A stretch of 64,000 nucleotides of DNA from Agrococcus baldri (lineage in GTDB: Bacteria > Actinomycetota > Actinomycetes > Actinomycetales > Microbacteriaceae): positions 186,001 through 250,000 of the forward strand of contig BJUU01000003.1 of NCBI GenBank assembly GCA_007988785.1, written 5' to 3'. Below, piece by piece: positions 25,157 through 29,551 of the stretch (position 1 is its first letter; each line of letters begins with the position of its first letter). Under the pieces are notes generated by a model. The model did no database searches. It was not told the DNA's origin and saw nothing but the letters and a program-made list of their open reading frames with translations. Position numbers and translations under genes: made by a program.

Positions 25157-26793
25157 GCGAGCCCGCCGCGATCGGCAGCGACATCCGGCCGCGCGTCATC
25201 GGCGCGCTGCGGCTCCGGCGGGTGCAGCTGGCGATCGCCCTGATCACCGCCCTGGTGCTCGTCGCGCTGACGATCGTCAGCGCCGACGTCTGGAGCCAGC
25301 CGTGGCCATGGATCGTCGTGCTCGGCATGGCGTCGGCGACGGTGCTCGCGATCGTGTCACCCTCGGCCGGCATGCCGATGCGGGTGATCGCGCCGACGCT
25401 CGACCTGATCGCGCTCACCGCGCTGATCGCCGACCCGCAGGCACCGCGCATCGTGGCGATGCTGGCGGTGGTGCCCGCGTTCTGGCTCGGCGTGACGGCT
25501 CGCAGGCGCGGCATCTGGGTCGTCGCCGCGGCGAGCGCGATGCTGCTGCTGGTGATGGCGCTGCGCATCCCCGACTCGGCCGGCGTCACCCTGACCGCCA
25601 ATGTCGTCGGTGTCGTGCTCGTGCCGATCGCGCTCGCGGCCACATCGTGGTTCGCCTACAACTACACGCGCACGATCGAGCGGCAGCAGCTCGCCATCCT
25701 GCAGCGCGAGCGCGAGAAGCTCGAGCTCGCCAAGGAGCGCGAGGCCGACGCCAGCCTGCTCGACGCGATCTTCGAGACGGCCCGCGTAGGGCTCGCGCTG
25801 CTCGATCCCGACGGCCGGGTGGTGCGCGTCAACAGCACCCTCGCGACGCATCCCGGGCTGGCCGGCACGACGGTGTCGGAGGTGCTGCCGGGCCTGCGGT
25901 TCCTCGAGCTCGACTCCCGCCGGGTGATGCCCGTCACCGCGACGCCCTTCGTGCGCGCCGCGCGCGGTGAGGCCTTCGACAACATCGTCTGCTGGATCGA
26001 GCGGCCCGACCACGAGCCGGTCGCGGCCACCATCTCCTCCCGCCCGCTGGTGCTCGACGGACGCTACCGGGGCTCGATCACCTCGGTCGACGACGTCACG
26101 AACTACATGCGGATGCTCGAGGACCGCGACGACTTCGTCGCGCTCGTCTCGCACGAGCTGCGCACGCCGCTCACCTCGATCACCGGCTTCCTCGAGCTCG
26201 TGCTCGACGAGGAGCTGCCCTCCGGCGTGCACGCGTGGCTCGCGATCGTGCAGCGCAACGCGGATCGGCTGCGGGGGCTCGTCGACGACCTGCTGATCGT
26301 CGGCGAGCTCTCGCGCGGCGAGCTGCGACTGGCGCGGCAGCCGCTCGGCCTGCGCGAGCTGGGCGAGGAGGCCGTCGCCACGCTCGAGCACCGCGCGAAG
26401 CGGCGCGGCGTGACGCTGCGGCTGGCCGACGGGCCGCCCGTCGAGATCGAGGCAGACCATCGCCGCATCGCGCAGGTGATCGAGAACCTCGTCTCGAACG
26501 GCATCAAGTACACGCGCGTCGACGGCACGGTCGAGCTGCGCATCGGGACGGACGGCGCCGACGCGCTGGTGGAGGTCATCGACGACGGGCCCGGCGTGCC
26601 GGCCGCTGAGGCCGTGCGGGTCTTCGAACGCTTCTACCGCTCGACCTCGGCGCGCGCCTCCGGCGTGCAGGGCGCCGGCCTGGGCCTGTGGATCTGCCGC
26701 CAGATCGTCGAGGAGCACGGCGGCACGATCGAGTTCGCCAGCGAGCGCGGTGTGGGCTCAGTCGCGTCCTTCCGCCTGCCCGGGCCGGCCTGA
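25153..26793 (+). CDS. Membrane histidine kinase with PAS domain
   Basis: A 546-residue sensor kinase. Five or six membrane helices (about 25-165) are followed by a coiled linker (178-200), a PAS-like domain (about 200-315), and the kinase core: phospho-acceptor H334 in VSHELRTPLTS, N-box QVIENLVSNGIKY, G1 DDGPGVP and G2 GAGLGLWICRQI. The GTG overlaps the HerA-like stop. No response regulator follows it; the nearest is in the opposing operon at 29192. Its last 36 bases overlap the end of the glycosyltransferase gene on the other strand. Confidence 0.9.
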   Translation: MSEPAAIGSDIRPRVIGALRLRRVQLAIALITALVLVALTIVSADVWSQPWPWIVVLGMASATVLAIVSPSAGMPMRVIAPTLDLIALTALIADPQAPRIVAMLAVVPAFWLGVTARRRGIWVVAAASAMLLLVMALRIPDSAGVTLTANVVGVVLVPIALAATSWFAYNYTRTIERQQLAILQREREKLELAKEREADASLLDAIFETARVGLALLDPDGRVVRVNSTLATHPGLAGTTVSEVLPGLRFLELDSRRVMPVTATPFVRAARGEAFDNIVCWIERPDHEPVAATISSRPLVLDGRYRGSITSVDDVTNYMRMLEDRDDFVALVSHELRTPLTSITGFLELVLDEELPSGVHAWLAIVQRNADRLRGLVDDLLIVGELSRGELRLARQPLGLRELGEEAVATLEHRAKRRGVTLRLADGPPVEIEADHRRIAQVIENLVSNGIKYTRVDGTVELRIGTDGADALVEVIDDGPGVPAAEAVRVFERFYRSTSARASGVQGAGLGLWICRQIVEEHGGTIEFASERGVGSVASFRLPGPA

Positions 26794-28233
26794 CGCATCC
26801 GTCGTCGTGCCGACGAAGCCCGTGCGCGTCATCTCGCCCCACACCTGCTGCCTGCCGGTCAGCGCCGCCCACCAGCCCTGGATGCGCCAGACCGCGGTGA
26901 GCTGCCGGTAGCCGAGGTTCTCGGCGACGATCGCCCAGAGCGTCGAGCCCAGGTCGCGCCACCGCTCGTAGCGGTGGAAGCTCGCCTCCTCGACCACCAC
27001 CGCGGCGAGCGTGACGAGCGTGCCGTAGCCGTAGGAGACCAGGATGAGGAACAGCGCGAGCGTGTTGTCGAGCGCGCCGGTGAGGAAGCCGAGCAGCAGG
27101 ATGACGATGCCGACCAGCTCGAACAGCGGGGCGAAGAGCTCGAACAGCCAGTAGTAGGGGAGCGCGACCGAGCCGATGCGGCCGTACTTGGGGCGGAAGA
27201 GCATGCCGCGGTACTTCCAGAGCACCTCCCACAGGCCGCGATGCCACCTGCGGCGCTGGCGGGCCAGCACCTTGAGGGTCGAGGGCGCCTCCGTCCAGCT
27301 GACGGGCTCAGGCACGTAGGCCACCCGCGCGTCGCGGTCGCCGTCGCGGATCCATCGCTGGATGCGCATGACGAGCTCGAAGTCCTCGCCGATCGAGTCG
27401 GGGTCGAGACCGCCCAGCTCGAGCAGCACGTCGCGCCGGAACATGCCGAACGCGCCGGAGATCAGCACGAGCGCGCCCAGGTCGGACCACGCGGTGCGGC
27501 CCAGCAGGAACGCGCGCAGGTACTCCACGACCTGGATGCGGGTGATGATCTGCTTCGGCATCCGGATCTCGACGATGCGGCCGCCGATCACGCGGCTGTT
27601 GTTGACGATGCGCACGACGCCGCCGGTCGCGACGACGCGGTCGGGATCGTCGGCGAACGGCTTCGAGACGGACAGCAGCGCGTCCGGCTCGAGGAGCGAG
27701 TCGGCGTCGATCATCACCACGAGATCGTTGCTGGCCAGATCCAGCCCGGCGTTGATCGAGTCGGAGCGACCGGAGTTGTCCTTGTCGATCACGATCAGCG
27801 GCACCGGGCCGCCCTGCGAGCGCCAGATCCGGCGGATGGCGCCCCGCACCGGCAGCCGCCTCGGCAGGTCTCGGAGGTCGGGCACGAGGTCGTACTCGTC
27901 GCGCAGGAGCGCCACGGTGTCATCCGAGCTGCCGTCGTTGATGACGATCACCTCGTGGTCGGGGTAGCGCAGATCGAGCACCGAGCGCACGCTGGCGCGG
28001 ATGACGGCGGCCTCGTTGTAGGCGGGCACGAGCACGCTCACGCCGGGGCTGAGCGGCGAGGCGGCCATCGCCTCCTCGCCGCGGTGGCCGCGACGGCGCA
28101 GGTAGCGCGAGAAGTGGCGCCCCGCCATCAGCACCAGCACCAGCATGAACGTGTTGGAGAGCACGAAGTAGATCGCCGACGGCCAGATGAGCGCCTGGAT
28201 GACGGCGACGACGGCGTCGTGCAGCCAGCTCAT
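26758..28233 (-). CDS. Processive family-2 glycosyltransferase (polysaccharide synthase-like)
   Basis: A 491-residue membrane synthase. One N-terminal helix (about 15-40), a GT-A domain with VLVPAYNEA (near 68), DxD in MIDADSLLEPD, GEDFELVMR and the polymerase motif QRRRW in ARQRRRWHRG, then four C-terminal helices (about 350-450). QxxRW marks processive enzymes such as cellulose, hyaluronan and poly-GlcNAc synthases. It is the last gene after a receiver and a HEAT protein, with ATGA overlap to the latter. The product is unknown; surface polysaccharide is likely. Confidence 0.88.
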   Translation of the reverse strand: MSWLHDAVVAVIQALIWPSAIYFVLSNTFMLVLVLMAGRHFSRYLRRRGHRGEEAMAASPLSPGVSVLVPAYNEAAVIRASVRSVLDLRYPDHEVIVINDGSSDDTVALLRDEYDLVPDLRDLPRRLPVRGAIRRIWRSQGGPVPLIVIDKDNSGRSDSINAGLDLASNDLVVMIDADSLLEPDALLSVSKPFADDPDRVVATGGVVRIVNNSRVIGGRIVEIRMPKQIITRIQVVEYLRAFLLGRTAWSDLGALVLISGAFGMFRRDVLLELGGLDPDSIGEDFELVMRIQRWIRDGDRDARVAYVPEPVSWTEAPSTLKVLARQRRRWHRGLWEVLWKYRGMLFRPKYGRIGSVALPYYWLFELFAPLFELVGIVILLLGFLTGALDNTLALFLILVSYGYGTLVTLAAVVVEEASFHRYERWRDLGSTLWAIVAENLGYRQLTAVWRIQGWWAALTGRQQVWGEMTRTGFVGTTTDASGRPGQAEGRD

Positions 28234-29195: not shown

Positions 29196-29551
29196 CCGAG
29201 CGTCGCGGTCACGCGGGCCAGCAGCGCGCGGGGGCTGAAGGGCTTGGTGACGTAGTCGTCGGCGCCCGCCGCGAAGCCCGCCTCGATGTCCTTCTCCTGC
29301 CCGCGAGCGGTGAGCAGGATGACGGGCGTGGTGTCGCCCCGGTCGCGGATCGCGCGCAGCACGTCGATGCCGGACATGCCGGGCATCATCAGGTCGAGCA
29401 CGATGAGCGACCAGGCGCCCTCGAGGGCGGCCTCGAGCGCCTGCGAGCCGTCGGAGCGCACGACCACCTCGTAGCCGGCGGACTCGAGCTTGATGGCGAC
29501 CAGGTCGCGGATGTCGCGGTCGTCGTCCACGACGAGGATGCGCGCGCTCAC
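29192..29551 (-). CDS. Stand-alone response regulator (receiver domain only)
   Basis: A 119-residue receiver with no output domain. The acidic pocket is D9-D10-D11, the phosphorylation site is D53 in VLDLMMPG, and T81 and K103 (YVTKPFS) complete the switch. It must signal by protein contact, most simply with the HEAT protein encoded next. The convergent kinase at 25153 is the nearest candidate phosphodonor. The GTG at 29551 puts the first strand at the start and has GGGAG upstream; an ATG at 29605 would add 18 residues. Confidence 0.87.
   Translation of the reverse strand: MSARILVVDDDRDIRDLVAIKLESAGYEVVVRSDGSQALEAALEGAWSLIVLDLMMPGMSGIDVLRAIRDRGDTTPVILLTARGQEKDIEAGFAAGADDYVTKPFSPRALLARVTATLG

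Follow-up and report, generated by a model that had tools for sequence, protein, structure and literature searches.

How could a response-regulator receiver that lacks any output domain exert control when its gene is bound into a tight cluster with those of a HEAT-repeat protein and a glycosyltransferase? The question was raised by a locus of Agrococcus baldri lying within 64,000 nt of contig BJUU01000003.1 (this whole stretch is called the window here), in which such a receiver, a HEAT-repeat protein and a GT2 glycosyltransferase are encoded in series and face a membrane histidine kinase on the other strand. It is probable that these four proteins constitute one signalling-to-enzyme module, in which polymer synthesis would be switched post-translationally by docking of the receiver on the HEAT protein. 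The proposal is based on the gene content, the intact motifs, the gene order and the gene overlaps, on the way kinase and synthase are present or absent together among genomes, and on genomes that have the kinase and the receiver only. The genus, family and phylum named below are those of A. baldri, and loci and genomes are given as L and G numbers where they have to be told apart.

Gene organization

The module was found to comprise the following features.

29192-29551, minus strand: single-domain receiver, 119 aa, GTG start
28230-29195, minus strand: HEAT-repeat protein, 321 aa, PF13646
26758-28233, minus strand: GT2 processive-type glycosyltransferase, polysaccharide synthase candidate, 491 aa
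25153-26793, plus strand: membrane histidine kinase, 546 aa, HisKA, HATPase_c and a weak PAS
26758-26793, both strands: overlap of the convergent 3' ends of kinase and synthase, 36 nt

A preliminary description of the window had reported three minus-strand genes overlapping by 4 nt each, and this was confirmed at both junctions, receiver/HEAT and HEAT/synthase. The convergent overlap of the kinase and synthase genes leaves both C-termini doubly constrained, and antisense effects are possible. At its other end the kinase gene, with the start as chosen, shares 4 nt with the end of an upstream HerA-type ATPase gene.

Properties of the four proteins

The receiver was matched by PF00072 at residues 5-114 of 119 and no further domain was found by Pfam, as had been described. 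It contains the acidic pair D10/D11, the phospho-acceptor D53, T81 and K103. Its top NCBIfam match was the receiver part of PhoB (126.9 bits, the cut-off for the whole protein being 296.2), and by its sequence it is classed as an OmpR/PhoB-type receiver without the DNA-binding domain. A PF00072 search recorded 24 receivers genome-wide, of which this one alone lies inside the window, the next on the contig being ~32 kb off. Among 102 receivers, which had been selected by a receiver profile, D53 was kept in 99, T/S81 in 100 and K103 in 100. Since the phospho-acceptor Asp and the Lys are kept in nearly all of them, phosphorylation probably matters. It was also observed in phylum-level relatives that a receiver gene lies upstream of the HEAT gene on the opposite strand, in L175, L178, L179, L180, L182, L184, L186, L187 and L190. 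Two Bacillota receiver proteins near HEAT-synthase genes (L223 6437-7408 and L216 6330-7958) have a GGDEF region, a possible tie to cyclic di-GMP (c-di-GMP).

The HEAT protein was matched by PF13646 with 66.9 bits against a cut-off of 27.7. Hydropathy indicated a single hydrophobic helix near the N-terminus (residues 11-29), after which come an Arg-rich stretch and the HEAT repeats, in agreement with the membrane anchor that had been described; by simple hydropathy an N-proximal hydrophobic helix was present in 114 of 122 HEAT reading frames. Because of the Arg-rich stretch after the helix, the usual rule would place the HEAT solenoid in the cytoplasm, and GT2 catalytic domains of the synthase kind lie in the cytoplasm as well. 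HEAT solenoids are typical protein-docking surfaces.

In L179 (6982-9768, minus strand) HEAT and synthase share one open frame of ~930 codons with a very Arg-rich linker; this frame may be a true fusion or may stem from a sequencing error. The synthase and a HEAT region below the cut-off are likewise in one open frame in L223 and L230, and a frame joining receiver and HEAT was found in none of 136 loci. The start M-[ST]-W-L-x-D-A, which had been reported as common to HEAT protein and synthase, is real in the window; MSWLTD opens the sequence in just 2 of 14 HEAT proteins of the genus, and the shared start was discarded as a sign of a common HEAT/synthase interface.

The synthase contains GT2 domains (Pfam) with the D, DxD, ED and QRRRW motifs. 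The residues D100, D176, D178, D284, Q326, R327, R329 and W330 were invariant in a 32-row alignment and E283 was nearly so, which bore out the earlier assignment to a QRRRW-type synthase. Two membrane helices were called by hydropathy. The solved chains that matched the protein over a long stretch include cellulose and hyaluronan synthases. PgaC (TIGR03937) was the best NCBIfam match, with 148.2 of the 422.3 bits required and the best stretch at residues 146-362, and CelA reached 54.8 of 699.1 bits; the poly-N-acetylglucosamine (PNAG), cellulose, NodC and other named synthase families were rejected, the synthase being below their cut-offs. No PilZ or other c-di-GMP domain was found by Pfam in the five window proteins scanned, a search that receptors without a Pfam model could escape. 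Judged by its sequence, the enzyme is a candidate processive polysaccharide synthase with a polymer as the presumed product. The synthase may resemble E. coli YaiP.

A FastTree phylogeny of 131 chosen synthases separated 107 strong members, defined by profile score, from 24 other GT2 proteins with a local support of 0.98. HEAT accompanies 95 of the 107 strong synthases and none of the 24 others.

The kinase was matched over the cut-offs by PF00512 (HisKA, 57.8 bits) and PF02518 (HATPase_c, 94.9 bits), and hydropathy indicated five hydrophobic segments. The preliminary description of a PAS histidine kinase encoded opposite the trio was right as to the two kinase domains and the convergent arrangement, the PAS domain itself being detected below the cut-off only (PAS_8, 17.6 bits vs 21.8). 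The kinase core is of the broad PhoR/PnpS type (PnpS, 219.9 bits, under the family cut-off of 400). Sensors differ in the neighbouring kinases of other families, with HAMP and GAF over the cut-off and CHASE3 just under it in L046, and GAF over the cut-off in L049.

Conservation within the genus

Of 60 genomes searched for HEAT homologues, 22 gave a match, a figure that includes the genome of the window. Twenty of the other 21 loci were taken, 14 from the same genus and 6 from other families of the order, and the weak match of G054 (E 6.5e-4) was left out. Receiver, HEAT and synthase genes stood in the window order at 20/20 loci, and the 4-nt receiver/HEAT overlap was likewise present at 20/20; the HEAT/synthase overlap of 4 nt was recorded in 16 of 18 measured loci, the exceptions being L044 and L045. 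The kinase gene lay downstream on the opposite strand at all 14 genus loci, with its end overlapping that of the synthase by 36 nt in 11 of them and by 33 nt in one, and with no overlap in two. The receiver was the best conserved of the four proteins at these 14 loci, with identities to the window proteins of 82-89% for the receiver, 74-83% for the synthase, 55-73% for the kinase and 53-64% for the HEAT protein.

Among 24 genus genomes the synthase was present in 15 and the kinase in 16. All 15 synthase genomes carried the kinase, as opposed to 1 of the 9 others (Fisher p 1.2e-5, relatedness uncorrected).

The module is flanked as follows.

23324-25156, plus strand: HerA-type ATPase gene, left flank, outside the module
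30107-30193, minus strand: tRNA-Ser(GGA), right flank

The HerA gene was present in 21 of the 24 genus genomes, six of these without the synthase, and was therefore counted as flank. As it was also present in 19/19 genus genomes of good quality, the presence of the kinase is not explained by that of HerA. In the five HerA-bearing genomes lacking kinase and synthase, none of the four module genes was found in the stretch beside HerA. Three of these (G009, G021 and G023) have empty sites, in which tRNA-Ser(GGA) lies <100 nt from HerA and is followed by an S8 protease gene; two other genes separate HerA and the tRNA in G007. In G013 HerA and the tRNA are 8 kb apart with other genes between them, and no S8 gene was detected.

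In G004, the one kinase genome of the genus without the synthase, an open 119-residue receiver (L304 5840-6199, minus strand) adjoins an open kinase (4163-5806, plus strand). HEAT and synthase are missing between the two, and neither was found elsewhere in the G004 genome.

Kinase and receiver without HEAT and synthase

For a second family of the same order, the one around G053, 79 genomes were searched, the queries being the lineage's own kinase and synthase. The kinase was found in 21 genomes and the synthase in 19. The kinase was present in 19/19 synthase genomes versus 2 of the 60 others (p 2.4e-16, relatedness uncorrected), and the two genes were on one contig and <=450 bases apart in 19/19. 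The co-occurrence with the kinase that the preliminary description had put forward as a check was thus seen in two families.

The two genomes with a kinase and no synthase match, G1003 (L310) and G1040 (L311), again have a receiver adjoining the kinase. The fetched stretch, in which rho and prfA also lie, holds no HEAT or synthase gene; no synthase was found elsewhere in these genomes, and HEAT was looked for in the fetched stretch. From three genomes in two families, this suggests that kinase with receiver and HEAT with synthase are two sub-modules. The simplest reading of the kinase-receiver genomes, above all of G004, is a loss of HEAT and synthase. Kinase and receiver are strongly linked genetically by joint presence with the synthase and by joint presence where HEAT and synthase are missing, and they may be a cognate pair. 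Such natural genomes make the division of labour within the module directly testable.

The genes rho and prfA were also in the fetched stretch at 13 of 95 loci (L046, L048, L050, L051, L078, L085-L087, L142, L145, L146, L152 and L157).

Distribution in the phylum

Presence of the synthase was scored at E 1e-60 or better in overlapping samples, the window's own genome being counted each time. The counts were 7 among 150 family genomes, 16 among 296 at class level, 47 among 297 at order level and 47 among 296 at phylum level. The system is patchy inside the family and wider than it.

From these samples, 75 further loci of the phylum were chosen by the synthase alone, other matches being left unfetched. 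A HEAT gene was recorded <=2.2 kb upstream of the synthase in 73 of the 75, both misses being contig ends, and a same-strand receiver in 60, by profiles partly trained on these same loci; when the profiles were restricted to sequences of the window and the first 20 loci, HEAT was still recorded in 69 of 75. In 55 of the 60 receiver-bearing loci the receiver has no output domain and adjoins HEAT, and a 4-nt receiver/HEAT overlap was found in 34 of the 60. A kinase was encoded <=6 kb away in 57 of 75 loci, downstream on the same strand in 26, downstream on the opposite strand in 6, upstream on the same strand in 13 and upstream on the opposite strand in 12. Chance neighbours, estimated from the window genome (24 receivers, 9 HisKA kinases, 3.16 Mb), would be expected at ~1% for a receiver and ~3% for a kinase. 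The conservation figures exclude chance.

Distribution beyond the phylum

The synthase alignment was also run against a collection of 84,980 species and the best 80 of 396 relatives were examined, as a sample and not a census; all counts in this section, and the all-phyla counts weighed later, refer to these best 80 of 396. They included 41 strong members, of which at least L213 (Patulibacter) and L233 belong again to Actinomycetota. Among 40 loci tallied, HEAT was found by profile in 29 and a same-strand receiver in 21. One of the 11 loci without a HEAT profile match, L206, is a contig end. Pfam found HEAT just upstream over the cut-off in L221, L231 and L235 and below it in L217, L223 and L230; in L218 no HEAT was found by Pfam upstream of the synthase, and L220, L229 and L238 lay outside that scan. 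Among the hosts in which receiver and HEAT lie upstream of the synthase are Daejeonella, Chryseotalea, Chryseobacterium, Geothrix, a Terriglobia bacterium, a Gemmatimonadetes bacterium, Parvibaculum, Stutzerimonas, Clostridium, Jeotgalibacillus and Sporosarcina.

The preliminary description had proposed conservation of the gene order across the family as a check, with an order found only in the window as the outcome that would speak against it. The order recurs widely, at 20/20 loci, with HEAT and synthase together in 73 of 75 and in several phyla; within the family itself it is patchy.

Neighbouring proteins picked by eye at seven Gram-negative loci were scanned with NCBIfam. A YaiO outer-membrane barrel was found in six of them (L199, L204, L205, L211, L219 and L228; on the opposite strand in L199 and L211) and not in L202. 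Pfam detected the barrel in L217 and L229, which brought the total to eight Gram-negative clusters. In five of the six NCBIfam-scanned clusters the barrel was accompanied by TPR repeats, as in known polymer exporters. A sulfatase-fold protein, phosphoglycerol-transferase-like by NCBIfam, follows the synthase in L199 (10360-12405) and is fused to it in L211 (8884-12312), and a sulfatase-fold protein is fused to or follows the synthase in L221 (10417-12840). The YaiO and sulfatase-fold neighbours suggest that the polymer is exported and decorated.

In Bacillota, a protein of ~620-730 aa is encoded immediately upstream of the gene for the receiver or for HEAT (L207 4814-6937, L231 2996-5119, L235 6015-7871 and L265 4669-6849), for which no Pfam match was found at E up to 0.05.

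Proposed mechanism and alternatives

We proposed that the membrane kinase senses a signal and would phosphorylate the receiver at D53. The phosphorylated receiver would act not on DNA but by docking on the HEAT solenoid, which would be situated at the membrane beside the GT2 synthase and probably bound to it. The docking would alter the activity or the assembly of the synthase, and polymer synthesis and export would be switched post-translationally. We infer the phosphotransfer, the contacts of receiver with HEAT and of HEAT with synthase, the direction of the effect and the secreted polysaccharide as the product. The interpretation that had been given in the preliminary description is partly supported; in its favour are the constant order of the genes, the presence of the kinase alongside the synthase, and the fact that most receivers have no output domain and still retain their phosphorylation residues. 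On balance we lean further towards the view that receiver, HEAT and GT2 synthase form an old, cross-phylum class of two-component output, in which phospho-aspartate takes the part that c-di-GMP has elsewhere. A receiver with no output domain would here gate a dedicated clade of processive synthases via the membrane-anchored HEAT solenoid, with lineage-specific sensors and with YaiO as the exporter in Gram-negatives.

Several observations weigh against the proposed docking module. A same-strand receiver was lacking in 15 of the 75 same-phylum loci, of which four are at or near contig ends and four have an opposite-strand receiver, and five of the 60 receivers found (L175, L178, L180, L182 and L184) are regulators with ~200 extra residues, encoded ~500 nt from HEAT. 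Among the all-phyla loci, receiver and HEAT were found together in 17 of 40 and were adjacent in 11; in the other six a gap of ~850-1200 nt separates the two, with the YaiO gene inside it in L204, L219 and L228 and with such a gap also in L201, L212 and L226. A kinase lay <=6 kb away in only 9 of 41 all-phyla loci. Kinase and receiver stand alone in G004, G1003 and G1040, and the receiver may therefore have a further target, or the pairs may be relics. Three of the nine synthase-negative genus genomes (G003, G005 and G016) are incomplete and also without HerA, and therefore add little to the co-occurrence. The window kinase came out narrowly top of the nine HisKA kinases of its genome when these were scored against the neighbouring kinases of other families (207.5 vs 193.0 bits), and with this narrow margin a special kinase subfamily was set aside as proof of the pairing.

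The tightness of the HEAT-synthase pair, recorded in 73 of 75 loci and kept in 13 of the 15 without a same-strand receiver, would also suit a different division of roles, in which the phosphorylated receiver binds the synthase itself, in the manner proposed for EpsW and EpsZ of Myxococcus, and HEAT is an assembly or stability partner that carries no signal. It is in keeping with this that the open frames joining domains combine HEAT with synthase and never receiver with HEAT in 136 loci, and that the action of a single-domain regulator on an enzyme of glycan synthesis has been published (PMC12802240). On the other side, the receiver gene adjoins that of HEAT, with the 4-nt overlap in 34 of 60 loci. 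Generally, HEAT solenoids serve as docking sites for proteins, and direct binding to the synthase was considered unlikely. The enzyme might instead transfer just one sugar, or a few, to a carrier lipid or protein, and the module would then regulate envelope glycosylation and not a polysaccharide; its scores lie far under the named synthase cut-offs (PgaC 148.2 of 422.3, CelA 54.8 of 699.1 bits), and the four window genes include no exporter or modifying enzyme. The invariance of Q326-R327-x-R329-W330 in 32 rows, the cellulose and hyaluronan synthases among the long structural matches, and the YaiO barrel of the Gram-negative clusters, in five of six with TPR repeats, speak for a polymer, and glycosylation of a carrier was rated as rather unlikely.

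A further explanation dispenses with any contact in the cluster and takes the genes as an ordinary two-component system beside a synthase, with the receiver serving as a phosphate sink or relaying to a DNA-binding regulator encoded away from the cluster, and with the control of the synthase transcriptional or absent. The PhoB/OmpR type of the receiver and the three genomes in which kinase and receiver occur alone (G004, G1003 and G1040) would fit a relay, for which single-domain receivers can serve, as stated in the passages available of PMC12802240. A scan of five window proteins gave no Hpt domain, the search for Hpt being confined to these. The conserved overlap with the HEAT gene and the retention of the trio in several phyla, even without a nearby kinase, argue for a local target of the receiver, and a sink or relay was held to be quite improbable. 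The preferred reading remains the docking of the phosphorylated receiver on HEAT.

Comparison with known systems

By title and abstract screening, no description of this gene set was found in the open-access literature; subscription-only papers could exist. For the working principle at least one parallel has been published; the module as such seems not to have been described. In Myxococcus xanthus, PMC12802240 reports that phosphorylated EpsW, a regulator made up of a receiver domain only, raises polysaccharide synthesis at the post-translational level, apparently through direct contact with the membrane glycan enzyme EpsZ, for which evidence is presented. A single-domain regulator and a glycan enzyme are common to both cases and the working principle may be alike. 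As described there, EpsZ is a phosphoglycosyl transferase that initiates a Wzx/Wzy pathway, and the input comes from the Dif chemosensory system, whereas a GT2 enzyme, a HEAT protein and an ordinary kinase nearby are found here. The target of an EpsW-type regulator would be a large monotopic phosphoglycosyl transferase, and the enzyme encoded beside the present receiver is a GT2. In the available main text of that paper the word "heat" occurs in the methods only.

Two other candidates were rejected. Romboutsia RiGT2, linked to mixed-linkage glucan, has PilZ, and the term "response regulator" in its text and a HEAT repeat protein in its passages were absent as far as PMC10374906 was available. 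Rubrivivax EmbRS has a regulator with a LuxR-type DNA-binding domain and is unrelated, according to the accessible part of PMC3684757.

Among the closer relatives by enzyme type, PgaC/IcaA (TIGR03937) is the best NCBIfam match of the synthase, yet the synthase is not a member of that family. The YaiO clusters (TIGR04390/PF19413) share the barrel with the eight Gram-negative clusters of the synthase, and the barrel is not among the four window genes. PhoR/PnpS-PhoB has the same broad type of kinase core and receiver; here the receiver has no DNA-binding domain, and both proteins are under the family cut-offs (400 and 296.2).

The systems controlled by c-di-GMP, namely cellulose BcsA with its PilZ domain, RiGT2 (PMC10374906) and the Nfr/NGR pathway (PMC8669472), share with the present one, in the passages available, either the GT2 core with its D, D, D and QxxRW motifs or a surface glycan that depends on c-di-GMP, and post-translational control. 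The present system differs in that no PilZ or other known c-di-GMP domain was found in the window proteins scanned and the input would be a phosphorylated receiver and HEAT. That c-di-GMP is frequently involved in the control of synthase-dependent pathways is also stated in the accessible part of PMC12802240. Bacterial polymer synthases are best known as c-di-GMP-switched, and the module, if the proposal is true, would be a second general route of control, would give a role to some output-less receivers, and would provide surface-polymer control where the synthase has no PilZ.

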